A stretch of DNA of 64,000 nt from Flavobacterium nitratireducens. Its GTDB lineage: Bacteria; Bacteroidota; Bacteroidia; Flavobacteriales; Flavobacteriaceae. The stretch is from contig NZ_CP121111.1 in assembly GCF_029625335.1 (NCBI RefSeq), forward strand, positions 1,302,001 to 1,366,000, written 5' to 3'. The translations under genes and the position numbers were made by a program. Every line of letters starts with the position of its first letter. Position 1 is the first letter of the stretch. Shown in pieces: positions 3,340-57,981 of this stretch. The notes beneath the pieces are model-generated. The model worked only from the letters and a program-made list of their open reading frames with translations. It made no database searches and had not been told where the DNA came from.

Positions 3340-3465
3340 TATTTTTTTTAACTGTATCTGTAAGAACTAATAAAGCTTTTCTTTATAGCTACTTTATGCG
3401 CTTTTTTCAACTTTTCGCAATCACTCGAGTTTGGCAGTTGCGACGAGATAAAAAAATGTGCGTTT

Positions 3466-3617
3466 GATTGTGTCATTCCTCCAGAGGAGAAATCTCATCT
3501 CGTTTATTACTTTTTCTTTACTCACTTTGTAGACTTTCTCTATGTGATTTCTCCCTTTGGTCGAAATGACAAAACAATCTGTGTAAGTGTGTCATTCCGA
3601 CGAAGGAGGAATCACAT
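3466..3617. repeat. REP-like palindromic repeats downstream of GIY-YIG gene
   Basis: Three related pieces lie here. One starts at 3470 (tgtcattcctccagagga). An inverted relative lies at about 3544-3571 (gtgatttctccctttggtcg...aatgac). A third at 3590-3617 (gtgtcattccgacgaagg) overlaps the 3' end of the GIY-YIG gene. The same sequence recurs at 4073-4103 on the other side of that gene. They are GC-richer than their surroundings and can fold into hairpins. Bases 3340-3465 hold nothing else I can identify. Confidence 0.7.
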
Positions 3618-3939
3618 CCCCATTTTTAAATCTTTCATTCAAGAACTCAAATTCCGGATTGAAAGAACGAATTAATTCTATTTTTTTAGTTCTATTCCAT
3701 CTTTTTAATTCTTTTTCTCTTGTGATTGCCAAATGTACCCAACTGTGTTTTTCATAATATACCAAAAACTCAATTCCATATTTTGCTGCAAACGTTTTAT
3801 TAGCTTCTTCAATATTTTTATGATGTTGTTGTAATCGTAGCTGTAAATTATTAGTCATACCAATACAATAAGTTGACCGATATTTATTGGTAATAATATA
3901 AACATAATAAGTATGACTTCCTTCTGTATAATCAAACAT
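3592..3939 (-). CDS. GIY-YIG domain protein (UPF0213-like) in a repeat island
   Basis: 115 residues. The N-terminal YYVYIITN followed by YCIGMTNNLQLRLQQH is the GIY-YIG fold signature. A conserved Glu/Lys-rich helix follows (ITREKELKRW). The usual YIG element reads CIG here, so a conserved tyrosine is replaced by cysteine. The last residues, DVIPPSSE, are encoded by the flanking palindromic repeat, which also supplies the stop codon. Small stand-alone GIY-YIG proteins are presumed nucleases, but few have a known role. It interrupts the MBOAT/SGNH pair and has no link to polysaccharide synthesis. Confidence 0.8.
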   Translation of the reverse strand: MFDYTEGSHTYYVYIITNKYRSTYCIGMTNNLQLRLQQHHKNIEEANKTFAAKYGIEFLVYYEKHSWVHLAITREKELKRWNRTKKIELIRSFNPEFEFLNERFKNGDVIPPSSE

Positions 3940-4009
3940 ACTTTTTTATTCAACTTAATTTAGGTGATGACAAAATACGATTAATTTTCTTTATTGAGTT
4001 TCTTTATGT

Positions 4010-4103
4010 GATCTGCTTCGCCTGTTCACTATAGCTCGAGTCTCCTTCGTCGAGATGACAAAATGCAGCTAGTGTGTCATTCCGACGAAGGAGGAATCAC
4101 ATC
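4010..4103. repeat. REP-like palindromic repeats upstream of GIY-YIG gene
   Basis: An inverted copy (atgtgatctgcttcgcct ... tccttcgtcgagatgacaaa) is followed by a direct copy at 4073-4103 (gtgtcattccgacgaagg). The latter is identical over about 30 bases to the copy overlapping the 3' end of the neighbouring GIY-YIG gene, so the gene is bracketed by matching repeats. Confidence 0.7.
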
Positions 4104-4142
4104 CTAAAATTATATATCAATCTTAAAAGTTTATACAAAATC

Positions 4143-5576
4143 CTAAAACTGAAAATAAATAAACTCTTTGTAATCCGAATAGGTTCCTAAAGCCATGATA
4201 GCGGCCAAACATAAAGCTAATTTTACTGTTTGATATTTACCCGAAATGGGTTCTTCTTTGGTGCGATTGTTCCATTCGACAGTGATAAACAGCAGCAGCA
4301 AGAGGATAATTTCATAGTTGTATCTTTCGTTAGCCAAATATTGGGTTTCGAAATGCCCATTGGTAAACATTTTTTTTAAATACAAAAAGGCATCTGTGAT
4401 TGTTTTAGCTCTAAAAAACACCCAAGCCAAACAACTTAGTGCAAAGGTGAGTACGATTTTGGCAACCGTTCTTACCGATTCCCAACTTCGATCTAAAACA
4501 ACTGTATCCAAATTGTTTCGATTGGATTTCCGTATAAGAAGTGGTAAAAAGTACAAGGCATTAATCAGCCCCCAAACTACATACGTCCAATTGGCACCAT
4601 GCCAAAAACCACTGACCAAAAAGATGATAAAGGTATTGCGGATTTTCATCCACATTCCGCCTTTGCTACCTCCTAACGGAATGTATAAATAGTCGCGAAA
4701 CCAAGAGGATAGCGAAATATGCCAACGACGCCAAAACTCGGCTATATCTCTTGAAAAATAAGGGTAATTAAAGTTACGTAATAACTCTAATCCGAACAAT
4801 TTGGACATCCCCAATGCCATATCGGAATAACCGGAAAAATCGCCGTAGATTTGGAAAGCAAAATAAACAGCTCCTAATACTAACGAGAATGAATTCATTG
4901 AGCCATAATGGTCAAAGATGGCATTAGCATAAGTCGCACAGGTATCGGCAATGACTACTTTTTTTAGTAATCCCCATAGCATTTGGTAGATTCCTGCTTT
5001 AGCCTGTTCGAAATTAAAACTTCGTTTTTCTTTGATCTCTGGCAATAAATGGGTTGCTCTTTCGATAGGTCCTGCCACCAAAAGCGGAAAATAACTCACA
5101 AACAGGGAATAATCGACAAAGTTGTATTCGGCTTTAATTCTTTTGTAATAAATATCAATTACATAGGATAGGCCGTGGAAGGTATAAAAAGAAATCCCCA
5201 CAGGTAAGACTACATCTAAAAGAAAAGGTGACGTTTTTAAACCAAATCCTTGCATTAGCTCCGCAAAAGAAGCCGCAAAGAAGTTATAATACTTAAACAA
5301 GCCCAGAAATCCTAAATTGACTCCGATACTCAACCAAAACCAAAATTTTCGACTGCTTTCTTTCTGGCTTTTTTCAATTCGAATACCCGTATAATAATCT
5401 AAAAAAGTCGAAAATACTAAAAGAAATAGGAAGCGCCAATCCCAACAGGAATAGAAATAATAACTGGCAATAATTAATAAACTATTTTGAGTGGTTTTGT
5501 TTTTGTTAAACACAAACCAATACAAAATAAAAACGAGGGGTAAAAAAATCGCAAAAGCGAAAGAGTTGAAAAACAT
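4143..5576 (-). CDS. MBOAT-family O-acyltransferase (AlgI-like)
   Basis: 477 residues with about ten to twelve hydrophobic segments, the usual size for bacterial MBOAT proteins. The diagnostic block WRRWHISLSSWFRDYLYIP is at about 282-300, with the catalytic histidine in FWHGANWTY (His326). The family moves an acyl group, usually acetyl, across the inner membrane to an extracytoplasmic acceptor. With the SGNH-like gene downstream this suggests O-acetylation of the polysaccharide made here. The sequence appears intact. The C-terminus KEFIYFQF is typical of the family. Confidence 0.9.
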   Translation of the reverse strand: MFFNSFAFAIFLPLVFILYWFVFNKNKTTQNSLLIIASYYFYSCWDWRFLFLLVFSTFLDYYTGIRIEKSQKESSRKFWFWLSIGVNLGFLGLFKYYNFFAASFAELMQGFGLKTSPFLLDVVLPVGISFYTFHGLSYVIDIYYKRIKAEYNFVDYSLFVSYFPLLVAGPIERATHLLPEIKEKRSFNFEQAKAGIYQMLWGLLKKVVIADTCATYANAIFDHYGSMNSFSLVLGAVYFAFQIYGDFSGYSDMALGMSKLFGLELLRNFNYPYFSRDIAEFWRRWHISLSSWFRDYLYIPLGGSKGGMWMKIRNTFIIFLVSGFWHGANWTYVVWGLINALYFLPLLIRKSNRNNLDTVVLDRSWESVRTVAKIVLTFALSCLAWVFFRAKTITDAFLYLKKMFTNGHFETQYLANERYNYEIILLLLLFITVEWNNRTKEEPISGKYQTVKLALCLAAIMALGTYSDYKEFIYFQF

Positions 5577-5581
5577 TTTTT

Positions 5582-5616
5582 GAGTTAAAAGTTATGAGTT
5601 AGAAGTTATGAGTTCT
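5582..5616. repeat. Degenerate heptamer repeat (GTTATGA/GTTAGAA type)
   Basis: About five consecutive 7-base units of the form GTTxxxA lie between the MBOAT gene and the upstream glycosyltransferase-like gene. It is a member of the dispersed heptamer family found at about ten other places in the window. Confidence 0.7.
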
Positions 5617-5699
5617 CTTCTTCCCTTATCTCAAAGTGGGGCAAATTCTCATTAACTAATTAAGCAGCAAATCTAGGATAAAATTTTCAAAATCTAATT

Positions 5700-7097
5700 T
5701 CATTTTACAATACTATCAATTGCATTCCAAATTTTCTCCGAGGCCTGTGTTGGCGTTTCACCTGCTACAATAGCATACCATTTTTTTCCTTCGGCAACAT
5801 TAGATAAATTCCCTTTCAATATCGCTTCGATTTGATCTGCCAATTGCTTTTTATCTGTACAAAAAACAGCAGCTTGCTGACTTGGCATTGATCTAAAATG
5901 AACGTATTTATAGTTTTGCCCAATGTCACGAATTCCTTTTTTCAATTGAGGCTGTTCATAATTATAATAAATACATGGCTTATTATGAGCTACAAAATCG
6001 AAAACTGTGGAAGAACACACATTGGTTACCAATTCAGAATGTGCACAAACATTATGCAATAATCCTAAATCGGCCTTAGTAGGAAATACTTCGTTCCAAT
6101 TTTTCCCTAAAGCCTTCCATAATGGATCTATTACTGCGATGATATCTTTATTAGCCTCAATTACTGCATTGTATCGGGAAGTAGTGTCAACAGGACATTT
6201 ACGATAGATAATCCCCAAATTATATCCTTTAGCGTTTAAAGTACGAACAGCATGAGCTAAATCTTCTAAATAATACTGATCTAATGGTGATGTGGTTTCA
6301 TCATCTCCTGAAAAACAAATGTATTTTTTTTGGATATCCAACTGATATTCGGCAAAAAAAGCTTCTCTACTTTGCGTTAGAGCAGTATCGTAATGCGGTT
6401 CAAATTGAGGTGTTCCCGTAACTATTAATTGGTTTTCCTTAACAAAAGGGTAATATTGTAGCATTTCCTTTTTCATCAAATCACTCCACACACAATAATA
6501 ATCGGTTTCTACCAATTGCATCGCTTTAGGCACATTATCCCAAGAATACACAAACGTTAAAGTAGGAATCCCTAAATCCTGTGCAGCCAATAAAGCGCCA
6601 ATAGATTGAGTAGCTCTTTGGGTAGTACAAAAAACCAAATCGGGTTTTATTTCTTCCAATTGTTTTTTGCAATACTGATACTTTTCGGTAGCACGTTCTA
6701 AAGCATTAATTCTTTTTCGAATTCGTACTATCCCTTTTTCAGAAGAATTCAAACCAATAAGCACTTTGATAAAAAGTGTCATCAAAGTATTCTTTAATCC
6801 ATTGTAATTAAAGGGAAATTTATAAGTTTGATATACTTGATCTTTGAACTTTTTGGTAGCAACATTCAGTTCAATATGTTTTCTAACACGACAATAGTAA
6901 GAAGTTAAAGGATGAATCTTTTGTGTCTTGATTTTTACTTCTTCATACCCTAATTCTTCTTGTAAAGGATAAACGGTATTGTTCCAATATATTATTTGGT
7001 TTCCACGCTCTTCACCAATTTCTTTAAATTGGGTAAAGGCAAAATTGCGAAGCCCTACACCATCCGGGAAAAAAACAAGGATTTTTTTATTGTTCAT
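5700..7097 (-). CDS. GT-B-like protein of unassigned specificity, next to nonulosonate genes
   Basis: 465 residues, no signal peptide, no membrane span. The N-terminus MNNKKILVFFPDGVGLRN and the central LDIQKKYICFSGDDETTSPL suggest two Rossmann-like lobes. A C-terminal segment (CSSTVFDFVAHNKPCIYYNY) resembles the donor-binding end of CDP-glycerol/UDP-glycosyltransferase-type GT-B enzymes. I do not recognise the exact family. It lies 56 bases downstream of neuB, so a transferase for the CMP-activated nonulosonic acid is a reasonable but unproven guess. Confidence 0.5.
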   Translation of the reverse strand: MNNKKILVFFPDGVGLRNFAFTQFKEIGEERGNQIIYWNNTVYPLQEELGYEEVKIKTQKIHPLTSYYCRVRKHIELNVATKKFKDQVYQTYKFPFNYNGLKNTLMTLFIKVLIGLNSSEKGIVRIRKRINALERATEKYQYCKKQLEEIKPDLVFCTTQRATQSIGALLAAQDLGIPTLTFVYSWDNVPKAMQLVETDYYCVWSDLMKKEMLQYYPFVKENQLIVTGTPQFEPHYDTALTQSREAFFAEYQLDIQKKYICFSGDDETTSPLDQYYLEDLAHAVRTLNAKGYNLGIIYRKCPVDTTSRYNAVIEANKDIIAVIDPLWKALGKNWNEVFPTKADLGLLHNVCAHSELVTNVCSSTVFDFVAHNKPCIYYNYEQPQLKKGIRDIGQNYKYVHFRSMPSQQAAVFCTDKKQLADQIEAILKGNLSNVAEGKKWYAIVAGETPTQASEKIWNAIDSIVK

Positions 7098-7153
7098 TGA
7101 TTATTTTTATGAGTGCAAACCTAATGCTTATTTCTTTTTGCTTAAACAAAAAA

Positions 7154-8029
7154 TCAGCCTTTCTTATTCTTCAACTTCTCTCGTTGCACAACTTCAATTG
7201 GTAAAATATCACTGCTTTTAAATGTCAACGCCGAATGAACTGCATTTAAATCACGACTTAATTTTCGTAAGCCCATAGGTTCTAATGAAGCGGCATGATC
7301 GGTTCCTTTCCAGGTACGATCCAGTGTATAATGTCTTTCGATAATATTGGCTCCTAAAGTATAAGCTGCTATATCAACTGCTATCCCTAAATGATGCCCT
7401 GAAAAACCAATGTGTTTGACCTTTTCTCCATATTTAGCTATTAGCAAATTAATATCTAGCAAGCAAACATCTTCAAATGGTACCGGATATCCAGATGTAC
7501 AGTTGTACAAAACCAAATCCTGATTACGCCCTTTTTCAATAAAGAAATTGACTAGTTCTTCAGTTTCATTTTTAGTTGTCATTCCTGTCGAAATATGAAT
7601 CTCACCTTGGTAATTTTCGCATAACCAAGATAACATCGCATAATTATTATTACAAGCAGAAGGAATTTTAATAAAATCAGGATGTAATGTAGCAATTTCT
7701 TTAGCGGAAGTCAAATCCCAAACCGAAGTAGAATATGTAATACCAACCGATTCACAGTAATTTTTCAATTCGGCATGTTGGTTTAGACCAAATTCCAAAT
7801 ACTCTCTATGCGCGCCATAGGTATCCCCATACGCATTGGAACTATTGGGATGTGGAGCATTGTATTGCTCTTCCGTTAGTAATTCTTTATTATTTCTTTT
7901 CTGAAATTTGACTGCATCGGCATTACAAAATATTTTAGCAATTTTGATGAGCTCCTTAGCAATTTCCATTTCCCCCTTATGATTGCAACCTATTTCGGCA
8001 ATTACATAGGGTTTTTTATAGTTATTCAT
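7154..8029 (-). CDS. neuB: NeuB-family nonulosonic acid synthase
   Basis: 291 residues. NeuB-type TIM-barrel motifs are present in order: YVIAEIGCNHKG at the N-terminus, AVKFQKRN, FIKIPSACNN, ISTGMTTKNE, HIGFSGHHLG and IIERHYTLDRTWKGTDHA. The family condenses phosphoenolpyruvate with an N-acyl hexosamine to give sialic acid or a related nine-carbon sugar. It lacks the C-terminal SAF (antifreeze-like) domain that usually brings NeuB to about 340-350 residues; the reading frame ends cleanly in KLKNKKG. No hydrolysing NeuC/LegG-type epimerase is visible, so the exact sugar is open. A fused NeuA-HAD gene lies upstream beyond a repeat island. Confidence 0.85.
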   Translation of the reverse strand: MNNYKKPYVIAEIGCNHKGEMEIAKELIKIAKIFCNADAVKFQKRNNKELLTEEQYNAPHPNSSNAYGDTYGAHREYLEFGLNQHAELKNYCESVGITYSTSVWDLTSAKEIATLHPDFIKIPSACNNNYAMLSWLCENYQGEIHISTGMTTKNETEELVNFFIEKGRNQDLVLYNCTSGYPVPFEDVCLLDINLLIAKYGEKVKHIGFSGHHLGIAVDIAAYTLGANIIERHYTLDRTWKGTDHAASLEPMGLRKLSRDLNAVHSALTFKSSDILPIEVVQREKLKNKKG

Positions 8030-8044
8030 TTACGTTTCGTTTTA

Positions 8045-8566
8045 TAATTTTCACACACCCCTAACCCCTCTCAAGAGGGGAATATAATAGTGCTAATCAA
8101 CAAATTTTATCTTTACACACATCATATCTCACACCCCTAACCCATCTCCAGAGGGGAATATAATAGAGCTAATTGATAACTTCTATTTTACATTTTAACT
8201 ACCTCAAATACTTTTACTTGATTTTTTTTTCTTTCACAACCTTATTACACTAATGCCCTTATTATTTTTTATGGAATCGTTACATCTTCGATTTCAAGAG
8301 AGGAACTCCTTAGTGCTAATTATAACTGATTTTACAATTTCAAATCTGGACTTTATCTAAAATAAAATACAAGACGAAAATATTATTAGGGACTTAACTT
8401 CCCTCTTGAGAGGGGTTGGGGTGTGTTTTTTAAACTCTTCAATAAAAAATTCAATCATCCTAATTACATTCTCCAAATCTATAGTCACTTGACTCTTACC
8501 ACACCTTACAACAATCCCCTGATTCAGCCCTGAATCTTTTTAATAGTCGTCATTCATTTACGAAAA
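8045..8566. repeat. Repeat island with palindromes and a DUF559 remnant
   Basis: Non-coding stretch upstream of neuB. Two copies of a palindrome-bearing unit (cacacccctaacccctctc...) start near 8051 and 8130. A segment at 8399-8520 resembles, on the minus strand, the 3' end of the DUF559 gene that follows: QVTxDxENVIRxIEFFIEEF is still readable, ending in the same palindrome. One arm of a direct repeat of about 36 bases lies at 8265-8301 (atggaatcgttacatcttcg), with its partner at 9030-9066. Confidence 0.7.
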
Positions 8567-8974
8567 CTAACTCCCCTCTTGAGAGGGGTTGGGGGTGTGT
8601 TTTTCAAACTCTTCAATAAAAAATTCTATTGCTCTAATTACGTTTTCGATATCCTTTGTGACTTGCTCATCTGTAAATCGTAATATGGTCACACCTAATT
8701 CCATCATTCTTTTTTCTTTTTTCAAATCTTTATTATGCACTTCAATTAATTGATGCGAATAACCATCTAATTCTATACCTAGCATTAATTCGTGACAAAA
8801 GAAATCTAAAATATAGTTATCTATAGGTTTTTGTCTGTGAAAATCATAACCATACATTTGTTTTCCTTTTAACTTCATCCAGAGGAATATCTCTGATTGT
8901 GTCGAATTATTTCTAAGTTCCCGAGCGTATTCTTTTAGTTTAGGATTTTAGGGGATGATTTTTCGTTTAGACAT
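8567..8974 (-). pseudogene. DUF559-family (very-short-patch-repair-like) protein with an early stop codon
   Basis: From ATG at 8974 the frame reads MSKRKIIP, a stop at 8950-8948, then NPKLKEYARELRNNSTQSEI and on to the end at 8567. All is in one frame, so a single nonsense change (family members usually have Tyr here) breaks an otherwise complete gene of about 135 residues. The part from 8878 (103 residues) could still be translated. LDFFCHELMLGIELDGYSHQ carries the acidic residues of the restriction-endonuclease-like fold. The C-terminal HTPNPSQEGS is encoded by the flanking palindromic repeat. DUF559 proteins are thought to be nuclease-like; no function is established. Confidence 0.75.
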
Positions 8975-8995
8975 GATGAAATATTTTATCTTTTT

Positions 8996-9312
8996 ACACA
9001 CCCCTAACCCCTCTAACTCCCTTTATTAATTTTTTATGGAATCGTTACATCTTCGATTTCAAGAGGGGAATACGATGACACTAATTACATCTACTACTAT
9101 ATCTTTACAACTTCTCTCTTTCTCACCTCCCTTGTCTCCCTCAAGAAGGGAATACGATGACGTTAATTATAAATTAGTCGCTCCAAAAATAGATTTTTCA
9201 ATTGCTTTTTATAATATTTCAAAGCAAAATGGAATTATTTTCCGAAAACTAACTCCCCTCTTGATAGAGGTTGGGGGTTTGTATTTTGAATTCTTCTACT
9301 TTCCCTTTTAGT
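8996..9312. repeat. Repeat island with a third DUF559 remnant
   Basis: Contains another palindrome unit (cacacccctaacccctcta), the second arm of the direct repeat at 9030-9066, a further unit near 9137-9172, and at 9249-9310 a degraded copy of the DUF559 3' end (minus strand VEEFKIQTPNLYQEGS). The plus-strand frame across 9036-9311 is a shadow of these repeats, not a gene. Confidence 0.65.
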
Positions 9313-10470
9313 CTAAAACCGTTCGTTATAAGCAATTATTTTTTCACAAGCTTCGCGAATTGCACCCTCAGCAGAAGCTTTCGTTAATAAATAATCGGCA
9401 TTAAGTTTTACTATTGTTGTGGCATTGGCCGGTGAAAATGACCATCCTGCTGCGCATATATTCGCTAAGTCATTTACATCATCGCCTATGTAGGCAAAAG
9501 AATTAAAATTAGTATTTTTGGTTTTAGCAAATTGTTGCAAAAAGGCATATTTATCTTTTACCCCTAAAAATGTATTTTCAATTTGGAGTTTTTTCATGCG
9601 TTGCGCCACTAAGGCTGAATTCTCAGATGTTATTACGACCACCTCAACCTGATTTTGACGTAATATCTCCAATCCCATTCCGTCACGCATATCAAAGGCT
9701 TTAGTCAATTCTCCTTCTGCCGAATAAAACACCTGTCCGTTAGTGAACACACCGTCAACATCTAACACTAAATAATCAATCCGTTGCTGTTGTTTTGCTT
9801 TTTTCAATCGGCTGGCTAAAAGTTCTTCTACAATTTTCCAATCGGTCATAGTGTCTATTTCAACCAACGTATTTTCAGGCATTGTCACTAAACCGATTTT
9901 ACCACTCACTCTGTTTTTAGATTCTAAAAAAGCCTGTTTTGTAGTAGCATAAACCGCTCCATTTTCTATTAACAAACCTTCAAAATCCTGACGCCTTGGA
10001 CGATGGAACACATCATAATTTTGAGGTGTTCCATTGGCATTCCAAGTAAAACGATGCGTATTAACTACGGTGAGAGCTGAATCGTAATTCTCTATTTCAA
10101 TTTTAGCTAAAGTGGTATTAATATCTCTAGCGGTAGTCATAGGCGAAGTCGCCTGCAACAAACACAGTACATCAAAATCGTATTGAATTTGTTGCGCAAA
10201 TTCCAACATAGCACTTTCGGTAGAAGCGGTATCCGTTGCATTTTCTTTGGAACGCAAAAGTGCTTTTACTTTTGGAGTCCAATGGTATTCTTTTGCGATA
10301 TAATCGATAATTTCCTCTTCATCGGTAAAGACAAAGACTTCATCCAAATCAGAAAAAATAGCTTCGCCTAAGACCCAAGAAAAAAGGGGGCGTCCCAGCA
10401 TTTTCTTTTTGTTCTTTCCAGGAATCCCTTTGGAATCTTTACGTAAGGGTATAATGGCTGTTTTTTTCAT
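9313..10470 (-). CDS. neuA: Acylneuraminate cytidylyltransferase fused to a HAD phosphatase
   Basis: 385 residues. Residues 1 to about 225 are a CMP-nonulosonate synthetase: the nucleotide-binding start TAIIPLRKDSKGIPGKNKKK, then LLQATSPMT. From about 235 a KdsC-like HAD domain follows, with LVLDVDGVFTNGQ (nucleophile Asp), VVITSENS and YIGDDVNDLANI. Such fusions occur in Bacteroidota, where the phosphatase may dephosphorylate the 9-phosphate made by a NeuB-type synthase before CMP activation. The pathway fit with neuB downstream is good. The distance from neuB is due to the DUF559 repeat island. Confidence 0.9.
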   Translation of the reverse strand: MKKTAIIPLRKDSKGIPGKNKKKMLGRPLFSWVLGEAIFSDLDEVFVFTDEEEIIDYIAKEYHWTPKVKALLRSKENATDTASTESAMLEFAQQIQYDFDVLCLLQATSPMTTARDINTTLAKIEIENYDSALTVVNTHRFTWNANGTPQNYDVFHRPRRQDFEGLLIENGAVYATTKQAFLESKNRVSGKIGLVTMPENTLVEIDTMTDWKIVEELLASRLKKAKQQQRIDYLVLDVDGVFTNGQVFYSAEGELTKAFDMRDGMGLEILRQNQVEVVVITSENSALVAQRMKKLQIENTFLGVKDKYAFLQQFAKTKNTNFNSFAYIGDDVNDLANICAAGWSFSPANATTIVKLNADYLLTKASAEGAIREACEKIIAYNERF

Positions 10471-10501
10471 TTTCTATATTCTAAAAATCAAATATACTGT
10501 T

Positions 10502-11338: not shown

Positions 11339-11393
11339 TATTTTAAATCTTTGTTCTTGCACATAATTATAATTGCATTTTTTCAAAAAAATG

Positions 11394-14660: not shown

Positions 14661-14671
14661 TTAATGTATTT

Positions 14672-24806: not shown

Positions 24807-26117
24807 TTATTCCCAATTTAATAGTGGTCTAATTAGACCTGGTATATTATGAGTATATTCTCCTCTAATTGTTTTATCATTTTTATTCTCAAGAGACATT
24901 AAATCCAACTATATCCATTTCATGAAACTCAACAAAAAATGGATTATATCGTAAAATTGCAAAACTACAAGTATAATTCCCCTCAGCTAGCAAATTTTTA
25001 GGTATAATAATAGTTTTTTTATACGAATTAATTGGAAAAGGCTTAACTAAAGTTAATGAGTTAGAATCGTGAGAACTTAATATGTGTACTCCTTGTGAAT
25101 TAAATAAATTAAAACCATGTGTAAACAATTGATTTTCTTTTAATATATCATACGTGAATTCAATTTTAATATCCTGTGTAGTTAAATGATTCAAACCTTG
25201 TTGATTATAAGCATCAATTACTTTTACTTCTTTCATTTTAATAAAATCCGAACCTGGAGGTATCTCATTATCCCAATTCCTATAAGAATGAAAATTTGAT
25301 TTTTTTAAATAAGTATTAATACAATTATCAATCTCTCCTTCAAAAACCACTTTCCCATGTTCTAAAACAATTCCCCTAGTACACAAACTCTTCACTGCCG
25401 CCATATTATGACTCACAAACAATACGGTTCTTCCTTCGCCTCTGGAAATATCCTGCATTTTACCAATGGCTTTTTTTGGAATTCGGCATCGCCTACGGCT
25501 AACACCTCATCAACAACCAAAATTTCAGGTTCGAGAAAGGCAGCTACAGCAAAAGCCAAACGAACGGTCATTCCGCTACTGTAGCGTTTTACAGGAGTGT
25601 CAATATAACGCTCACAGCCTGAAAATTCGATAATCTCATCGAGTTTGGTTGTGATTTCGCTCTTGGTCATTCCTAAAATAGCACCATTGAGATAGATGTT
25701 TTCCCTGCCTGTTAATTCGCCATTAAAACCGGTACCTACTTCTAATAAAGAAGCGATACGACCACGGGATTTAATAGTTCCTGTTGTGGGAGCTGTAACC
25801 TTTGAAAGAATTTTTAAGAGCGTTGATTTTCCTGCTCCGTTTTTACCAATGATTCCTAAAACTTCTCCTCGCTCCACTTCAAAATTGATATCCTGTAACG
25901 CCCATACATAATCGGAACTTCCCTTTGTGGAACGATCATTCACATCGCCTATTTTTAAATACGGATCTTCTTTTCCCCGAATACGGTGCCACCAACGATT
26001 AATGTCATGACTAAGCGTACCGGTTCCTACCGTACCTAATCGGTATTGCTTGGAGATGTTTTCGGCTTTTAGAATAATATTCTTGTTGTGAGTTCTGGGT
26101 TCTGGGTTGTCGGGCAT
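24807..26117 (-). pseudogene. wzt: Wzt-like polysaccharide ABC transporter ATPase, frameshifted twice
   Basis: N-terminal ABC domain: IIGKNGAGKSTLLKILSKVT (Walker A), YSSGMTVRLAFAVAAFLEPE (signature) and EILVVDEVLAVGD (Walker B). After AEFQ the frame breaks at an A7 run (T7 on plus, 25471-25477). One added A gives QKKAIGKMQDISRGEGRTVL and the H-loop FVSHNMAAV. A C-terminal Wzt-type glycan-binding domain follows. As read it ends at 24889 in GFNVS. A second shift at a short CT repeat (24892-24898) would extend it by LENKNDKTIRGEYTHNIPGL and RPLLNWE, the typical end, to 24807. The first residues, MPDNPEPRTHNKN, are encoded by heptamer repeats. Energises export with the upstream permease. Confidence 0.85.
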
Positions 26118-26220
26118 TGTTTGAGTTGTGAGTTCTGGGTTCTGGGTTGTGAGTTGTGAGTTCTGGGTTCTGGGTTCTGGATTCTAAAACCTCTAAAACT
26201 CATAACTCAATACTCACAAC
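26086..26220. repeat. Degenerate heptamer repeat array with inverted arms
   Basis: About fifteen 7-base units alternating TTGTGAG, TTCTGGG and variants, followed at 26190-26220 by the reverse-complement form (CTCATAA, CTCACAA). The array extends into the 5' end of the Wzt gene and lies downstream of the S23-like gene. The opposing arms could form a long hairpin. Confidence 0.85.
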
Positions 26221-26225: not shown

Positions 26226-26600
26226 CTATTTCCAATTTTGTTCTACATACTTTATAAAGTTAAAAATTTTTCCACCTAAATTTTCATAACGCTGTATTAA
26301 TGATTCAAAATCCGGTTTCAAATTAGGATATAGTACTACTATTTTATAAATATGACCAATTGTCTCTAAACAACTAGAATGAGAAAAAACCAAAAACCGA
26401 ATAAAATCAGCTTTATATTTTCTTCTTCCATATCCTTCTACTATATTAGACACTACACTATCTGAAGAGCGCCGCAACTGACTTCCTAACTCATACAATT
26501 CGTACTTGGGTAACTTTAGACTATTAGGATGTACCGTTAAAAACAAATCCAAACCAATATTGTAAATGTCTAAATCTTTATAACTTTTAAAATCGCTCAT
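26226..26600 (-). CDS. S23/four-helix-bundle family protein
   Basis: 124 residues, all helical in appearance, with the family signature LRRSSDSVVSNIVEGYGRRK at about 43-62 and KADFIRFLVFSHSSCLETIG. This family includes proteins encoded in 23S rRNA intervening sequences and many stand-alone copies of unknown role. It separates the two ABC transporter genes wzm and wzt, and is bounded on both sides by heptamer repeat arrays, so it looks like a later insertion in the operon. Confidence 0.85.
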   Translation of the reverse strand: MSDFKSYKDLDIYNIGLDLFLTVHPNSLKLPKYELYELGSQLRRSSDSVVSNIVEGYGRRKYKADFIRFLVFSHSSCLETIGHIYKIVVLYPNLKPDFESLIQRYENLGGKIFNFIKYVEQNWK

Positions 26601-26605: not shown

Positions 26606-26692
26606 TTTGTTGTGGGTTATCAGTTGTGGGTTATCAGTTGTGGGTTATCAGTTGGACTATCTCATAACTGACAACTCACAACTCATAACTGC
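26606..26692. repeat. Degenerate heptamer repeat array with inverted arms
   Basis: Plus-strand units GTTGTGG and GTTATCA alternate three times. A short spacer follows, then the inverted arm CTCATAA/CTGACAA/CTCACAA/CTCATAA. It fills the gap between the Wzm stop and the S23-like start. The inverted arms can pair over more than 20 bases, so it may act as a weak terminator or attenuator. Confidence 0.85.
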
Positions 26693-27561: not shown

Positions 27562-27685
27562 TATTTTTAATTCAATAATTCTTTGTTGTAAATATAAATC
27601 TCATTCTCTAAACCCACCAAAAATAACCGACTAATAACCTAAAAAGACTAAAAACTACCCGTTTTAAAAGAAAATCCTTGTTTGT

Positions 27686-27857
27686 TGTGGGGTTGTGGGT
27701 TGTGAGTTGTGAGTTGTGGGTTGTGAGTTGTGGGTTGTGAGTTCTGAGTTCTGAGTTCTGAGTTGTGGGTTGTGGGGTATTTTTTTTCTGCCCCTAAAGG
27801 GGAAAAGAAATTTATAAAATTCCAATACCTAACTCATAACTCACAACCCAGAACTCA
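27686..27857. repeat. Heptamer array plus half-palindrome upstream of capC
   Basis: Heptamers GTTGTGG/GTTGTGA/GTTCTGA at 27686-27777 and the inverted arm at 27826-27857. Between them lies cccctaaaggggaaaagaaa, half of a palindrome seen complete at 28803-28844. The 27562-27895 gap otherwise holds the 5' flank of wzm and the capC promoter. Confidence 0.8.
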
Positions 27858-28671: not shown

Positions 28672-28800
28672 AGTTGTGGGGTGTGGGTTGTCGGTTATCA
28701 GTTGTCGGTACAGTTCTCAAGTGAATTTCTTTTCTTCCCCCTGCCCCTTTAAAAAAGTTATGGGTTATCAGTTGTGGGTTGTGGGTTGTGGGTTGTCAAA
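28672..28800. repeat. Degenerate heptamer repeats downstream of capC-like gene
   Basis: Runs of GTTGTGG/GTTATCA/GTTGTCG at 28672-28712 and 28759-28798, with a partial palindrome (gaatttcttttcttccccct) between them. They occupy the space between the phosphatase and the convergent PglF-like gene. Confidence 0.8.
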
Positions 28801-28873: not shown

Positions 28874-28915
28874 AATTTTCGGCTCCCTTTAGGGCTGGGG
28901 AAAAGCGAAAATTTT
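28874..28915. repeat. Palindromic element, TTTTCGGCTCCC type
   Basis: Arms AAATTTTCG-like and CGAAAATTT flank a CCCTTTAGGG core. A near-identical copy lies at 33196-33236, there too beside the other palindrome family. Heptamers of the CTTCTAA form follow at 28919-28975. Confidence 0.7.
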
Positions 28916-33195: not shown

Positions 33196-33310
33196 AAATT
33201 TTCGGCTCCCTTTAGGGCTGGGGAAAGCGAAAATTTATGTTTTCTTTCGGAGACTCAGTCACTAAAATTTCTTTTTCTTTCCCCTCCCTAAAGGGTGGAA
33301 AAAGAAATTT
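33196..33310. repeat. Two palindromes between rmlB and rmlD
   Basis: 33196-33236 is the TTTTCGGCTCCC-type palindrome. 33265-33310 has perfect 13-base arms (AAATTTCTTTTTC with its complement) around a CCCT...AGGG core. Heptamers of the CTTCTAA type follow to 33350. They may weaken transcription between the two rml genes. Confidence 0.75.
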
Positions 33311-39690: not shown

Positions 39691-39698
39691 AATTGTAT

Positions 39699-47720: not shown

Positions 47721-47722
47721 AT

Positions 47723-49252: not shown

Positions 49253-49348
49253 ACAAACTTAAATTAACAATTCAATTATTTACAATTAATTCCAGATAAG
49301 AATACAAGATATTCTAAACCAATCATTTCTACTTTTATCTGCATAACT

Positions 49349-50482: not shown

Positions 50483-50503
50483 CCTATAAAGTACTTTTGA
50501 TCA

Positions 50504-51511: not shown

Positions 51512-51514
51512 CTC

Positions 51515-51548
51515 AGTTATGGGTTATGGGTTGTGGGTTGTGGGTTAG
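51515..51548. repeat. Heptamer repeat between tviB-like gene and manC
   Basis: Units GTTATGG, GTTATGG, GTTGTGG, GTTGTGG directly abutting the manC start codon region. Confidence 0.75.
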
Positions 51549-51562
51549 AATGTTAACAATAA

Positions 51563-52855
51563 TCAAAGTCTACCGTCAACTGCTGTACCCAAAACACCTT
51601 TTACATCATAAATAATACTATTATCATATTGGTGATTTGATAAATTCATTCTTAGAAATTCTGCGTGTGCTACTCCTAAAACTATTGCATCATATTTAAT
51701 CTCGTTAGTCAATTGTGTTTGGCTAATCAATCCATATTCTTTCATCACTTCTTCAGGATTTGCGAGCGGATCATATACTGTAACACTTATGCCATACTCT
51801 TTCAAAGCCTTTATTACGTCAATTATTTTAGTATTTCGCACATCTGGACAATTCTCTTTAAACGTAATTCCTAACATTAACAATGAGGCACCATTAACGG
51901 AAATTCCTTTTTTAATCATCAATTTGACCACTTGAGCAGCGACATATTCCCCCATACTGTCATTCAATCGTCTGCCTGCTAAAATAATTTCTGGATGGTA
52001 TCCTAATTCCTGTGCTTTTTGTGCCAAATAATAGGGATCAACCCCTATACAATGCCCTCCTACTAAACCCGGTTTAAAAGGAAGAAAATTCCATTTTGTT
52101 CCGGCTGCTTCTAATACCGCTTGCGTATCAATATTCATTAAACTAAAAATTTTAGCTAATTCATTTACGAAAGCAATATTGATATCTCTTTGTGAATTTT
52201 CAATGACTTTTGCCGCTTCGGCCACTTTGATGGAAGGTGCCAGATGGGTTCCAGCGGTAATAACCGATTGATAAAGATCATCTACTTTTTGACCTATTCC
52301 TGGTGTAGAGCCTGAAGTTACTTTTAAAATTTTATCAACGGTATGCAGTTTATCTCCAGGATTAATTCTTTCAGGGGAATAACCCGCAAAAAAGTCAACA
52401 TTAAATTGTAAGCCCGAAATGCGTTCTAAAACTGGCACACATTCCTCCTCAGTTACTCCTGGATAAACGGTCGATTCATAAATAACAATATCTCCTTTTT
52501 TCAAAACCTTTGCAACAGTCTCACTAGCCTTATACAAAGGGGTTAAATCAGGACGATTATTCTTATCTACGGGTGTAGGAACAGTCACAATATAGTAGTT
52601 ACAACCAGCTATGTCTTCTAATTGATTGCTGCAGTATAATCCCTTTTTATTTTTAATTTCATCTTTAGAAACTAAAACCGATTGTAATAGTGACGCACTG
52701 ACCTCAAGCGTACTGTCTATTCCTGAACTCAATTCTTCAATTCTATTTTGGTTGATATCAAAACCAACAACTGCATATTTTTCAGCGAATAGTCGAGCCA
52801 ATGGCAAACCCACATAACCAAGACCGATAACTCCTATTTTTGAATTTAAATTCAT
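51563..52855 (-). CDS. tviB: TviB/WbpO-like UDP-N-acetylhexosamine 6-dehydrogenase
   Basis: 430 residues. Rossmann [56 protein letters not shown], the central [20 protein letters not shown], and the catalytic Cys in [19 protein letters not shown]. Oxidises UDP-GlcNAc or UDP-GalNAc at C6. A WbpP/TviC-like 4-epimerase at 59485 would complete UDP-GalNAcA synthesis as in Vi antigen. It is the first gene after the HU-like terminator region. Confidence 0.92.
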
Positions 52856-52955
52856 GAATTAAACTATTAATTTCTACAGCTAACTTAAGTTTAGCCCAAC
52901 GCTTCGCGGTTCCAACCCACATAAAATGGACTGAAAACCGTATTTTTTATATTAG

Positions 52956-52963
52956 CAAATATA
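52956..52963 (-). promoter_or_regulatory. Candidate -7 box upstream of tviB-like gene
   Basis: Minus strand TATATTTG matches TAnnTTTG about 100 bases before the start codon. A second match, TATTTTTG, lies at 53081-53088, with TTTG 16 bases further upstream. The region is very AT-rich, so chance matches are expected. Bases 52856-53225 hold no gene. Confidence 0.3.
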
Positions 52964-53257
52964 ACGACAATAAGTCAGATATCTAATCAATTAATTCCCA
53001 CATTTAGTGGACAGCACCCACCAAGAAAGTTAAAAACCTAATTACCAAACCTATAAACACTAAGCGTTTCTAAAAAATTACAAAAATATCACCAAATTTA
53101 GTGACAAAAAAATACTTATAATTTAAAGTAAAACACTTCATATTTTAAAAAAAACCAACAAAAACTAGCTGTCCAAGAATAATTCAGAGTGTACTTATAA
53201 TAAATTTGGCTACATGCTTTGACTAGTGTATCTTTACAGAATAATTCGGAGAGTATC

Positions 53258-53337
53258 TGGAAGTACTCGAGGTCTTACAATAATTCTTTTGCTCAAAGAA
53301 AATGGTGTTCTAGCCCGCTTTTTTTGGGCTTTTTTTA
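53258..53337. repeat. Duplicated remnant of the HU-like gene's 3' end
   Basis: Bases 53258-53319 match 53661-53721 (tactcgaggtcttacaataa, then ttctagcccgctttt), which in the second location is the terminator arm and the last codons (KAG stop) of the HU-like gene. Only the end survived here, with one terminator arm altered. A short plus-strand hairpin AGCCC/GGGCT plus T-run lies at 53311-53335. A plus-strand frame of 77 codons over this region is not a credible gene. Confidence 0.7.
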
Positions 53338-53640
53338 TTGGAAAAATTGCCAATCCTTTAAGAATTCAAAACAGCCTATCAATCTCAAGCTTTATTAATA
53401 CTAACAATGGGATACTGATTTTAGTCACTTACATCTTGGCTTTCTCAGTTCAAACGTAGAGCCTCCTGTTCGATCGTAGGACTCTTTATAGGACAAAAAC
53501 AAAATATCCATCGATATAATTCATACTATTTCCAATTGGTACGGACGAGGTATTGCTTCCATCAGGACGAAGCAAAAAAATCATCAGGACGAAATTTTTA
53601 TATTATCCTGACAAAAAACATTGCAAAAAATACAATTGGC

Positions 53641-53678
53641 AAAAAAAAGACCCCGAGCACTGGAATACTCGAGGTCTT
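53641..53678 (-). terminator. Rho-independent terminator of the HU-like gene
   Basis: On the minus strand AAGACCTCGAG, a 10-base loop, then CTCGGGGTCTT and at least six further T. The stem is 11 pairs with one G-T wobble. It separates the regulator genes from the downstream tviB-led cluster, or is the point where antitermination would be tested. Confidence 0.85.
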
Positions 53679-53708
53679 ACAATAATCAGCTGCTCTGATT
53701 AAAGGGTT

Positions 53709-54092
53709 CTAGCCCGCTTTTCTAAATGTCAGATCATTTAACATTGATCGTAGTTTTTTCCCAGGACGGAAAAGAATTCGGCTCTTTTTAATGGCAGTAG
53801 AAGAAACTTCCGTTTCTGTTTCTTTGCCTTCTGAGCTAATTCCTACCTGAAAGTTCCCAAGTCGGCCCAAGTTAACAATTCGCCCCTGTGACAATTCGCC
53901 AATAATATTGTACTCCAGGGAGAGTAGAACAGCATAACAATCAGAAGCCGTAACAGTACATTGGTACGAAATCAGTTCTGCTAGTCTGTCAAAATCAACA
54001 GTTCCGTCTGCTAATGCAGCGGCATAAAATTTTTCAGGTGCATTGATGTCCTGAGGGTTCTTTCTTGGAAGAACCTGATACTTAATCGCCAT
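53709..54092 (-). CDS. HU-related DNA-binding protein
   Basis: 127 residues. MAIKYQVLPRKNPQDINAPE, the helical part ADGTVDFDRLAELISYQCTV, then IVNLGRLGNFQVGISSEGKE and RILFRPGKKLRSML, the HU-like beta-arm and C-terminus. Matches the Bacteroidota 'histone-like, putative' family, often found beside UpxY-type regulators at the head of capsule loci. Likely nucleoid-type binding, possibly a local regulator. Confidence 0.9.
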   Translation of the reverse strand: MAIKYQVLPRKNPQDINAPEKFYAAALADGTVDFDRLAELISYQCTVTASDCYAVLLSLEYNIIGELSQGRIVNLGRLGNFQVGISSEGKETETEVSSTAIKKSRILFRPGKKLRSMLNDLTFRKAG

Positions 54093-54165
54093 TGTAACAT
54101 GGTATTAAATTAATTAAAAAAATTTTGTCTTAGTATACCTATTAAAAGCACCTAACTGACACTTT

Positions 54166-54173
54166 CAAAGATA
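54166..54173 (-). promoter_or_regulatory. Candidate -7 box for the HU-like gene
   Basis: Minus strand TATCTTTG, an exact TAnnTTTG match, about 75 bases before the start codon. No clear -33 box. The remaining 54174-54627 is AT-rich and shows no gene. Confidence 0.5.
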
Positions 54174-54627
54174 CATAAGTCTTCTGATAATAAATAAGTA
54201 AGTTATTGACAAAAAAAAAACTTTTATATACAATAAATAAATTAAAAACAAGTATAACGTATTCATTTACAGTTATTTATTTTTTTAAATAGTATTTTAT
54301 CACAAAAAATAATGTTTATAATTATTTTTCTCGTTTACCAATTTCCACCAGCTCCAGCTGAAAAATCAAGTTGAATTTTAAAAAAATTATAAAATATTGG
54401 ACATTTTCACTATAAACGCCCACCTAAATTTTATATTGTATTGAAGATATTAAGCAATAGTATTACATTTGTATTGACTCTCACACAGCCATAATCCCGC
54501 TTAAGAGGAAAACTGTCAAGTAGAATTATTTATTAAAAAGGGAATAAATAATACGGAACGCTGTAGTAGATCTTCAAGAAATATTGGTATTCCGCTAAAG
54601 ATGATAACTAGCGCATTAGATATTCAC

Positions 54628-55092
54628 TTATTTTAGTTTCATCTTTAAAACACATCCTAACGACTCCAAAACAAGCACATAATTAGTTTTATTTACCTCC
54701 TGAACGATGGCTTCCTGAGACTTAAAAGGACCTGATTCCAAAACTATTTTATCTCCTACCTGAAGTGGAGCAACTGAAATTTCATATTGATTGGGAGTCG
54801 AAAGCCATTTTTTTATTGTATTAATTTCTTGATCACGCACAATAGCAGCTTTTCCTAACCAAAATAGATATCGCACAACACCTGATGACTGAAAAACAAG
54901 ATTTCTATCTTCTTCTTCCAAACGAACAAAAACATAGGAATTAAACAAGGGAACTTCTACTTTTTTCTTCCTATCCGACCATTGACGAATCTGAACCATC
55001 AAGGGGCAATAACATTCTATCCCCCTTTGAGTTAATTGCTCAGCTACTTTCTTTTCCCACTTCGGTTTTGTATACACTACATACCAATTCAT
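54628..55092 (-). CDS. UpxY-type NusG paralogue (transcription antiterminator)
   Basis: 154 residues. NGN domain start MNWYVVYTKPKWEKKVAEQL, ECYCPLMVQIRQWSDRKKKV, VPLFNSYVFVRL, then a KOW-like end VGDKIVLESGPFKSQEAIVQ. In Bacteroides, UpxY proteins bind the 5' leader of their own capsule operon and let RNA polymerase pass premature stops. Here it lies upstream of the HU-like gene and the Wzx/Wzy cluster, consistent with control of that long operon. Its own promoter was not found. Confidence 0.92.
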   Translation of the reverse strand: MNWYVVYTKPKWEKKVAEQLTQRGIECYCPLMVQIRQWSDRKKKVEVPLFNSYVFVRLEEEDRNLVFQSSGVVRYLFWLGKAAIVRDQEINTIKKWLSTPNQYEISVAPLQVGDKIVLESGPFKSQEAIVQEVNKTNYVLVLESLGCVLKMKLK

Positions 55093-55249
55093 TTCATTAG
55101 GCTTTAAATAACACAGAGGTTCTATTATTAAATTTTTTTTTTCAACTAATCAGTTTTAAACAAAATTGAATCTTGCTTATATTTTATTTCTCTATGTAAA
55201 CCTTGAAATCTCCCTGCATCAATTTAGTTGAAATTCAACATACAACTGA

Positions 55250-56624
55250 AAGTTTTCCCACCGTCAGTTCGAGTTGAATATCAATTTGCGACAGAAAATT
55301 GATTTGAAGTATCGAGAACCATTTTAAGCACTAAAGACTTCTCGATACATTTTGGCTTAATCACAACCCTACCTTAATTCAAATAAGTCAAGCCAAAACA
55401 CTCGAAGTGACGAAACAATCCAACATCTATCTCCCCCGTCAGTTCGAGTTAAAAACCAAAATACAACTGAAAATTCACCAGCCGTCAGTTCGAGTGATTT
55501 TTAAAGCAAAAAAATCATGTTTTATTAAAGAACACTCCGCTTTAAAAATAGTATCGAGAACCATTTTAAGCACTAACGACTTCTCAATATATTTTGGTTT
55601 AATCACAACCCTACCTTAATTCAAATAAGTCAAGCCAAAACACTCGTAGTGACGAAACAATCCAACATCTATCTCCCCCGTCAGTTCGAGTTAAAAACCA
55701 AAATACAACTGAAAATTCACCAGCCGTCAGTTCGAGTGATTTTTAAAGCAAAAAAATCATGTTTTATTAAAGAACACTCCGCTTTAAAAATAGTATCGAG
55801 AACCATTTTAAGCACTAACGACTTCTCAATACATTTTGGTTTAATCACAACCCTACCTTAATTCAAATAAGTCAAGCCAAAACACTCGAAGTGACGAAAC
55901 AATCCAACATCTATCTCCCCCGTCAGTTCGAGTTAAAAACCAAAATACAACTGAAAATTCACCAGCCGTCAGTTCGAGTGATTTTTAAAGCAAAAAAATC
56001 ATGTTTTATTAAAGAACACTCCGCTTTAAAAATAGTATCGAGAACCATTTTAAGCACTAACGACTTCTCAATACATTTTGGCTTAATCACAACCCTACCT
56101 TAATTCAAATAAGTCAAGCCAAAACACTCGAAGTGACGAAACAATCCAACATCTATCTCCCCCGTCAGTTCGAGTTAAAAACCAAAATACAACTGAAAAT
56201 TCACCAGCCGTCAGTTCGAGTGATTTTTAAAGCAAAAAAATCATGTTTTATTAAAGAACACTCCGCTTTAAAAATAGTATCGAGAACCATTTTAAGCACT
56301 AAAGACTTCTCGATACATTTTGGTTTAATCACAACCCTACCTTAATTCAAATAAGTCAAGCCAAAACACTCGAAGTGACGAAACAATCCAACATCTATCT
56401 CCCCCGTCAGTTCGAGTTAAAAACCAAAATACAACTGAAAATTCACCAGCCGTCAGTTCGAGTGATTTTTAAAGCAAAAAAATCATGTTTTATTAAAGAA
56501 CACTCCGCTTTAAAAATAGTATCGAGAACCATTTTAAGCACTAACGACTTCTCAATACATTTTGGTTTAATCACAACCCTACCTTAATTCAAATAAGTCA
56601 AGCCAAAACACTCGAAGTGACGAT
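55250..56624. repeat. Tandem array of 242-bp repeats, right-to-left block 1
   Basis: Near-identical units begin at 55407, 55649, 55891, 56133 and 56375, each 242 bases. A divergent first unit covers 55250-55406. Each unit has two direct copies of cgtcagttcgagt, an inverted pair gtatcgagaa/ttctcgatac (degraded to ttctcaatac in most copies) and the box cactcgaagtgacg, which resembles the inverse of cgtcagttcgagtg. Units differ at only a few bases. A 70-codon GTG-start plus-strand frame repeats with the units, but 242 is not a multiple of three and nothing supports translation. Confidence 0.95.
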
Positions 56625-56927
56625 TTAAACATCAAACTTCTTCTTTGCTAAATTCACAAGGGATTCAAAGTCATCATTAATCAAGGCTTCTTTCTTAGCT
56701 TTTGACCATTTTTTAATCTGTTTTTCTTTTTCTATTGCTAAATTAATATTTGTAAATTCACAATAGAAAACCAATTCAAGAGGTCTTCTTGAAAAAGTGT
56801 AACATTCTGGATAGAACCCAGAATTATGTTTAATAATCCTATCTGACAAATTACTCGTTACTCCTGTATAATATGTCCCATCTGAACATTTTAAAATATA
56901 CACATAAGACAATTTCATATACCCCAT
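56625..56927 (-). CDS. GIY-YIG domain protein embedded in the 242-bp repeat array
   Basis: 100 residues from ATG 56927 (MGYMKLSYVYILKCSDGTYY); the frame is open to 56957 but the extra residues are not family-like. YVYILKCSDGTYYTGVTSNL is the GIY-YIG core (YTG in place of YIG), followed by TNINLAIEKEKQIKKWSKAK with the conserved Glu. The stop codon lies 3 bases from the gtgacg box that ends repeat unit 56375. The other side is followed by a variant repeat unit. Different subfamily from the GIY-YIG gene at 3592. Presumed nuclease; role unknown. Confidence 0.85.
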   Translation of the reverse strand: MGYMKLSYVYILKCSDGTYYTGVTSNLSDRIIKHNSGFYPECYTFSRRPLELVFYCEFTNINLAIEKEKQIKKWSKAKKEALINDDFESLVNLAKKKFDV

Positions 56928-56964
56928 TTTTAAAATTGAACTAACTCTATTATTCAAGCTTTAA

Positions 56965-57830
56965 ACCAACATACAACTGAAAGTTTTCCCGCCGTCAGTT
57001 CGAGTTGAATATCAATTTGCGACAGAAAATTGATTTGAAGTATCGAGAACCATTTTAAGCACTAAAGACTTCTCGATACATTTTGGCTTAATCACAACCC
57101 TACCTTAATTCAAATAAGTCAAGCCAAAACACTCGAAGTGACGAAACAATCCAACATCTATCTCCCCCGTCAGTTCGAGTTAAAAACCAAAATACAACTG
57201 AAAATTCACCAGCCGTCAGTTCGAGTGATTTTTAAAGCAAAAAAATCATGTTTTATTAAAGAACACTCCGCTTTAAAAATAGTATCGAGAACCATTTTAA
57301 GCACTAACGACTTCTCAATACATTTTGGCTTAATCACAACCCTACCTTAATTCAAATAAGTCAAGCCAAAACACTCGAAGTGACGAAACAATCCAACATC
57401 TATCTCCCCCGTCAGTTCGAGTGATTTTTAAAGCAAAAAAATCATGTTTTATTAAAGAACACTCCGCTTTAAAAATAGTATCGAGAACCATTTTAAGCAC
57501 TAACGACTTCTCAATACATTTTGGTTTAATCACAACCCTACCTTAATTCAAATAAGTCAAGCCAAAACACTCGAAGTGACGAAACAATCCAACATCTATC
57601 TCCCCCGTCAGTTCGAGTTAAAAACCAAAATACAACTGAAAATTCACCAGCCGTCAGTTCGAGTGATTTTTAAAGCAAAAAAATCATGTTTTATTAAAGA
57701 ACACTCCGCTTTAAAAATAGTATCGAGAACCATTTTAAGCACTAACGACTTCTCAATACATTTTGGTTTAATCACAACCCTACCTTAATTCAAATCCATC
57801 AAGCCAAAACACTCGAAGTGACGAAAAGTC
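56965..57830. repeat. Tandem array of 242-bp repeats, block 2
   Basis: After the GIY-YIG gene comes a copy of the divergent unit (56965-57137, matching 55233-55406), then units at 57138, 57380 and 57576. The 57380 unit is 196 bases: exactly 46 bases between its two cgtcagttcgagt copies are missing, as expected from recombination between them. Confidence 0.95.
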
Positions 57831-57889
57831 ACCGTTAATTCGAATCATTTTTTTTACACGAATCCAATATAAAATAACATCACAACTCA

Positions 57890-57955
57890 ACGTCAGTTCA
57901 AGTGAATTTTCAGAAAACGCGAACAGCTTTTTCTGAAAATTTGTATCGAGAACCA
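57890..57955. repeat. Outlying repeat element with hairpin
   Basis: cgtcagttcaagtg followed by a stem attttcagaaaa/ttttctgaaaat and gtatcgagaacc, the same modules as the array in a different arrangement. It lies just past the 3' end of the ugd gene. Confidence 0.65.
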
Positions 57956-57981
57956 ATCACATCCGATTCATCAAGACCAAT

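Follow-up and report, generated by a model that had tools for sequence, protein, structure and literature searches.

Why should small nuclease-like genes each sit in a repeat island of their own, and what ties gene to repeat? The question arises from a 64,000-nucleotide stretch of Flavobacterium nitratireducens (NZ_CP121111.1, positions 1,302,001 to 1,366,000; the window is this whole stretch), in which an earlier note, made from the letters alone, had picked out two GIY-YIG genes, a DUF559 gene and an S23-like gene, each bracketed by a different family of palindromic repeats. It had compared them with repetitive extragenic palindromic (REP) elements and their REP-associated tyrosine transposases (RAYTs), and had proposed that the proteins recognise and help to spread cognate repeats. 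A Pfam search of the window confirmed all four genes in the families named (Table 1), and a separate repeat family was found around every one of them. For genes 3592 and 8567 the repeat also encodes the C-terminus, as had been noted: the copy at 3586-3619 shares the last 28 nt of gene 3592, and the one at 8572-8600 codes for the C-terminal end of the 8567 frame. On the evidence below, we give a probability of roughly 0.6 to the reading that the gene and the inverted repeats surrounding it form one REP/RAYT-like element, built on a GIY-YIG, a small DUF559 or, less certainly, an S23 gene.

The layout recurs throughout the genus. Flanks of 1.5-2 kb on either side of 40 GIY-YIG, 35 S23 and 33 small DUF559 loci were scored for their best inverted match to one another, with 131 small open reading frames from 20 arbitrary 20-kb regions as controls, whose 95th percentile served as threshold. 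Inverted repeats above it were found at 25/40 GIY-YIG, 29/35 S23 and 25/33 DUF559 loci as against 7/131 controls; the layout is that of the majority of loci, not of all, and the equal frequency beside other genes that would have spoken against the earlier note did not materialise. Direct repeats exceeded the corresponding percentile at 12/40, 0/35 and 7/33 loci, respectively, and at 7/131 controls. The GIY-YIG and S23 loci are the best 30 of each genus search (usually one per genome) together with all matches in the window's own genome, so that weak members of both families are under-represented; the DUF559 loci are 32 matches picked by their short open frame (L142 lies in a longer one; L and G numbers are our handles for loci and genomes) plus the window copy. 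Because many loci represent the same site in different species, a second count was made by site cluster. Clusters with one or more passing members number 17/26 for GIY-YIG, 10/10 for S23 and 17/21 for DUF559, and those in which most members pass number 15/26, 8/10 and 16/21. Five weak partial DUF559 matches (of 32 such) were treated as another family, and none of the five has an inverted repeat above the threshold.

The repeats differ in kind from family to family. DUF559 arms are hairpins of a C-run and a G-run, recognised by regular expression in 29/30 arms, and this motif is absent from 25 DUF559 loci whose open frame is long (494-1386 codons, searched within 1.5 kb of the domain) and from the 20 control regions. 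TGTCA occurs in 17/31 GIY-YIG arms, 1/29 S23 arms and 0/30 DUF559 arms. S23 arms are short-period arrays, with lag 7 as the top self-similarity lag in 17/28 S23 flanks from the phylum and 10/35 from the genus, and in 3/67 GIY-YIG flanks, 6/50 DUF559 flanks and 10/131 controls elsewhere; a period of seven for all S23 arrays was considered and dropped, the largest genus site cluster reading as period 8. Repeat type was then set against protein ancestry for GIY-YIG and DUF559. On the DUF559 tree the repeat types A-D form four groups with 3 changes, the minimum, whereas 300 shuffles never gave fewer than 12; with each site reduced to a single row the values are 3 and no fewer than 7 (L119 and L131, both missed by the regular expression, were labelled A by eye from their arms). 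The GIY-YIG tree, with types T1, T2, T3, T5, T6, T7 and tRNA, requires 8 changes in its 50 labelled rows, where 6 is the minimum and shuffles need 24 or more; reduced to a single row for each site and label it still requires 8, with shuffles at 19 or more. The tree excludes L097, L099 and L100, which are not small free genes, L045, L093 and L058, whose frames are odd or broken, and L246 and L258. Repeat type and protein phylogeny thus match in both families, a co-variation that the earlier note had suggested looking for.

A single chromosomal site lets the pairing be followed directly. Gene 3592 lies between two genes that we take to be MBOAT-like and SGNH-like, the second of which has no Pfam match. 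Of the 30 loci that scored best when 121 genomes were searched with the SGNH-like protein, 16 have an empty junction, the two genes overlapping as TAATG with no repeat; two more loci have 21 and 69 bp, and 12 are expanded. The occupant is a T2 GIY-YIG gene with T2 repeats in the window's own genome, a T1 GIY-YIG gene with T1 repeats in four others (G051, G110, G112, G029) and a type C DUF559 gene with type C repeats in three (G010, G025, G030); the 1.5-kb flank does not reach the first gene in G029 and G030, which were assigned to the site through L039 and L110, respectively. Type C repeats are present without a gene in G007, T1-like repeats without a gene in G045 and, judged by eye, in degenerate form in G017, and G005 has 298 bp with no recognised motif. 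All eight genes at the junction carry their own repeat type with no other type recognised beside them, and no mismatched pair was seen among the junction loci. Gene and repeats therefore co-occur, GIY-YIG and DUF559 genes switch together with their repeats at one site, and repeat type co-varies with protein ancestry. Since the 16 empty sites hold no repeat, the repeat must have come with the gene or before it. It could be argued that small accessory genes and repeats merely accumulate side by side at insertion-tolerant sites, and this junction does take several different elements; yet the eight matched pairs, the tree tests and the scarcity of such repeats beside control genes already make a coincidence of this sort highly improbable. 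Because repeat type matches phylogeny and empty sites exist, a REP/RAYT-like pairing of gene and cognate repeat is well supported for GIY-YIG and DUF559; S23 shares the layout.

A second kind of site, found beyond the window and widening the scope of the earlier note, is the tRNA gene. One lies within 400 bp of 12/69 GIY-YIG genes, as compared with 0/63 for S23, 0/51 for DUF559 and 1/131 for controls, and these GIY-YIG genes encode proteins of 81-104 aa beside eight kinds of tRNA. At four of five loci inspected (L043, L050, L091, L098) the gene has an intact tRNA as one neighbour and a partial, degenerate copy as the other; at L045 a partial copy alone was seen. Similarly, at the uvrA site, three of four genomes show (by eye) a degenerate uvrA 3' end copied behind the type A DUF559 element. 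Both kinds of partial copy fit an insertion that restored the gene it entered. They also bear on another explanation, in which free-standing homing endonucleases have repeats and tRNAs as pre-existing targets, the nuclease gene homes into the cut site, and the flanks are the halves of a split target. The GIY-YIG family includes such enzymes, for instance T4 segB between tRNA genes (passages of PMC2988022), the partial tRNA copies at the four loci would fit, and genomes with the repeat and no gene exist. Homing nonetheless seems to us unlikely, given the 16 empty MBOAT-SGNH sites without any repeat, the many arms that are whole repeat units on each side, and the inclusion of S23, which is no nuclease. 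As a separate observation, the degenerate tRNA copies at the four loci hold small perfect palindromes, such as TCCGCCATGGCGGA, that are absent from the intact tRNA.

Repeats also occur away from any gene. Exact patterns of types A, B and C were found in 26, 15 and 11 of the 121 genomes, at 1 to 17 copies per positive genome, while the reversed patterns gave zero matches. Gene and matching repeat are associated across genomes (Fisher 1.6e-10, 7e-9 and 1.2e-7 for A, B and C; lowest p for mismatched pairs 1e-3), an association that is partly trivial because flanking copies count. Distal copies, more than 3 kb away or on another contig and counted by hand, were present for type A in 8/18 genomes with the gene versus 10/103 without (p=9e-4) and for type B in 7/8 versus 7/113 (p=4e-7), both uncorrected for kinship; G101 counts as a gene-A genome in this test, though not in the all-copy association. 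Dispersed copies thus go with the gene for types A and B. Of 19 regions fetched, 16 gene-less copies were examined (14 type A, 2 type B), and five type A copies lie within long open frames, namely aroA twice, leuS, polA and L178; the insertion is spanned by a Pfam domain in both aroA genes and in leuS, and lies between domains in polA. In-frame type A repeats in these conserved enzymes are seen at L167 and L173 (aroA, at a similar place in the two genomes), L169 (leuS) and L170 (polA). Rickettsia palindromic elements likewise lie in-frame inside conserved proteins; unlike them, the repeats described here are found beside a nuclease gene of the corresponding type as well.

These dispersed copies tell against the idea that the inverted repeats are co-inherited RNA-level devices, hairpins or terminators that restrain harmful small genes. 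The arms do enclose the gene, so that the RNA made from it could fold into a long stem like that of the Coxiella 23S rRNA intervening sequence (IVS; passages of PMC4990558), and some tRNA-type copies have terminator-like repeats. Such control would hardly account for the same repeat types dispersed without genes and, for type A, in-frame in aroA, leuS and polA, and four ancestry-tracking sequence types per protein family exceed what a stem needs; we therefore regard RNA-level control as quite improbable.

How might the protein act in a unit of gene and repeats, the reading we prefer? S23 is not a nuclease: it was assigned to the four-helix-bundle family TIGR02436, and 2gsc is the one solved structure that it matches in sequence, so that the label nuclease-like holds for GIY-YIG and DUF559 and has to be withdrawn for S23. 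DUF559 matches the solved structure 3hrl, an 'endonuclease-like protein', and the GIY-YIG profile matches the UPF0213 proteins 1zg2 and 1ywl. The GIY..YIG..R..H pattern of the homing-endonuclease catalytic domain is kept in 58/61 GIY-YIG proteins (a first, narrower expression matched 18/61), 46/61 with the strict glutamate pattern, and D..ExD in 48/51 DUF559 proteins; judged from these core patterns, most could be active. Exceptions are found in the window itself, where the DUF559 frame has an early stop and the 3592 protein lacks the YIG tyrosine; both copies look decayed. We infer that the proteins recognise or spread their repeats, much as the earlier note had it. The protein would recognise its cognate repeat, which would be a palindrome or, for one group of short GIY-YIG proteins, a tRNA gene, and would break or nick the DNA there; repair might then copy the whole unit, or the repeat alone, elsewhere. 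Gene-less repeats would be the offspring of such events, and survivors would be those located where they do little harm, that is, at gene junctions, in tRNA genes whose function was restored, or in-frame in coding sequence. Two further observations concern these proteins: tandem GIY-YIG copies with equal scores lie about 320-910 bp apart (L143, L144, L145 and G250:C1:1733881-1734727), and at L166 (G046:C94) a type A DUF559 match falls within an open frame of 1265 codons and has repeat units about 421 bp apart next to it.

The layout also extends beyond the genus. In phylum-wide searches, which include a few same-genus genomes and use the threshold from the genus controls, inverted arms pass at 12/17 DUF559 loci; with inverted or direct repeats the counts are 15/17 for DUF559, 18/28 for GIY-YIG and 12/28 for S23 (one DUF559 and one GIY-YIG locus have too little flank). 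A cross-phylum scan compared the GIY-YIG alignment with named genomes, the best 80 loci being chosen blind to their flanks and covering many phyla by record title. Inverted arms, often TGTCATTCCCGCGnAnGCGGGAATCCA, were found in 56/76 usable loci compared with 16% of mispaired flanks; the flanks of three of the 80 were too short, and L311, which matched through a run of N, was discarded (57/77 becoming 56/76). We know of no explanation of how most short intergenic palindromes arose, except in REP/RAYT genomes. It is conceivable, though we would put it at somewhat less than an even chance, that several widespread intergenic palindromes, such as TGTCATTCCCGCGAAGGCGGGAATCCA, are made across phyla by GIY-YIG, DUF559 and perhaps S23 proteins, which would constitute independently evolved counterparts of RAYT/REP, each subfamily recognising its own repeat and multiplying it. 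A repeat type paired with a small nuclease subfamily provides a named candidate maker of palindromes, and units of gene plus repeat may explain the origin of many scattered bacterial repeats. Such a pairing would also point to a role for the small GIY-YIG, DUF559 and S23 genes; these are common in the genus (GIY-YIG in 121/121 genomes, S23 in 119/121), and we know of no function assigned to them.

REP/RAYT is the closest known architecture: in the passages of PMC2817692 bearing on it, the gene stands between two inverted palindromic repeats, the repeat type follows the protein, and gene-less copies and repeat-only genomes occur, all as here. The present units differ in that Pfam assigns their proteins to GIY-YIG, DUF559 or S23 (23S_rRNA_IVP) and not to the Y1 HUH transposases (Transposase_17), and in their low exact-match copy numbers for the three DUF559 patterns. 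With the phage T4 seg GIY-YIG homing endonucleases (passages of PMC2988022) they share the catalytic domain family, the position of some copies beside tRNA genes and, presumably, selfish behaviour; unlike seg genes, they lie in bacterial chromosomes, mostly next to short palindromic repeats, and their flanks behave as part of the unit. The Coxiella 23S rRNA IVS, a related observation, likewise has an S23-family frame inside inverted repeats (passages of PMC4990558), whereas the arms of five G000 S23 loci are short-period arrays, and no rRNA match was found at S23 loci L101-L105 (about 1.5 kb on each side) or in the window. Another related observation is that of rRNA insertions with GIY-YIG in the candidate phyla radiation (CPR; passages of PMC11270868). 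Independent support for the proposed mechanism comes from evolving L. pneumophila (passages of PMC12308824). There 11 mutation hotspots flank GIY-YIG genes and three are segments containing both a transposase and DUF559; of 61 long-range variants, 44% connect hotspots of this sort, and the GIY-YIG is termed a homing endonuclease/mobile element by the authors of that study. In line with the earlier note, which knew of no described system of this kind, our searches of an open-licence subset of PubMed Central brought up no description of the gene-repeat pairing, from which most subscription journals are absent.

Several results weigh against a mobile unit of gene and cognate repeat. For type C, distal copies are no commoner in genomes with the gene (0/6) than in those without it (5/115, p=1), and inverted arms pass at only 10/28 GIY-YIG and 12/28 S23 loci phylum-wide. 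The junctions inspected have short TTYTAA-like similarity at some sites, and no target-site duplication was established at them. The short GIY-YIG tree has poor resolution (5/58 inner branches starred), 11/61 of its rows have no recognised repeat type and were left uncounted, T7 labels are scattered among T1, and tRNA-type rows lie near each other without forming one supported clade. For S23, own arms in a same-site cluster pair barely better than swapped ones (mean 40.1 versus 34.0), with the own arm best in 1/16. One T1 and one T2 arm, folded singly, did no better than shuffles. The window's own DUF559 frame is interrupted: as in relatives it starts upstream of 8878, and the window copy has a stop at codon 9. 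The L. pneumophila hotspot variants are of low frequency and none is fixed (passages of PMC12308824). Finally, binding, cleavage and movement of the units are what we infer.

Table 1. Coordinates of the four genes of the window and of the repeats and site associated with them
Feature	Positions	Strand	Remarks
Occupied MBOAT-SGNH intergenic site	3340..4142	n/a	803 bp; TAATG overlap instead in 16/30 genomes
T2 repeat	3586..3619	+	overlaps and encodes C-terminus of 3592 gene
GIY-YIG gene (PF01541), T2 subfamily	3592..3939	-	Cys for YIG tyrosine; Pfam match 8.8e-13
T2 repeat, inverted copy	4041..4063	-	
T2 repeat	4071..4104	+	100% identity to 3586-3619
Type B repeat, outer arm	8053..8081	-	97% complementary to 8572-8600
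Apparent remnant of second DUF559 3' end and its type B repeat	8379..8491	-	
DUF559 (PD-(D/E)XK-type) frame, type B subfamily	8567..8974	-	stop at codon 9; open part 8567-8878 from internal ATG
Type B repeat	8572..8600	+	encodes end of DUF559 frame
Type B repeat, arm upstream of DUF559 gene	8996..9014	-	
7-nt array (GTTGTGA/GTTCTGG), downstream arm of S23 gene	26085..26185	+	
S23 / 23S_rRNA_IVP four-helix-bundle gene	26226..26600	-	Pfam match 1.9e-20
S23 upstream arm	26609..26689		7-nt array 26609-26654 and stretch 26663-26689 inverted to downstream arm
242-bp tandem units carrying GTCAGTTCGAGTG (T5)	55308..56623	+	one side of 56625 gene
GIY-YIG gene, T5 subfamily	56625..56957	-	Pfam match 1.4e-16
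Further T5 units	57213..57618	+	opposite side of 56625 gene

Palindromic islands, as the earlier note had described all four, do not fit two of them: the S23 gene is flanked by facing 7-nt-periodic arrays and not by REP-like palindromes, and the 56625 gene by direct repeats of a 242-bp tandem unit (direct score 697, inverted 26). In the apparent remnant of the 8567 island, 8412-8491 is 80% identical to 8586-8665. The window's genome, a single contig of 2.99 Mb, has 11 GIY-YIG matches, at least three of which (L097, L099, L100) are not small free genes, 5 S23 matches and 2 small DUF559 genes. Type C repeats occur at 28876-28894 and 33199-33217 of the window, though neither small DUF559 gene of the genome is of type C. 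More 7-nt arrays without an S23 gene lie at 27684-27776, 28756-28798, 51516-51547 and 59431-59480; among short-period arrays, period 7 or a multiple was read in 18/29 in the window, 13/42 in stretches of the rest of the genome and 9/48 in other genomes (overlapping rows counted). Genes for an HU-HIG DNA-binding protein and an UpxY-type antiterminator lie at 53709-54092 and 54628-55092.

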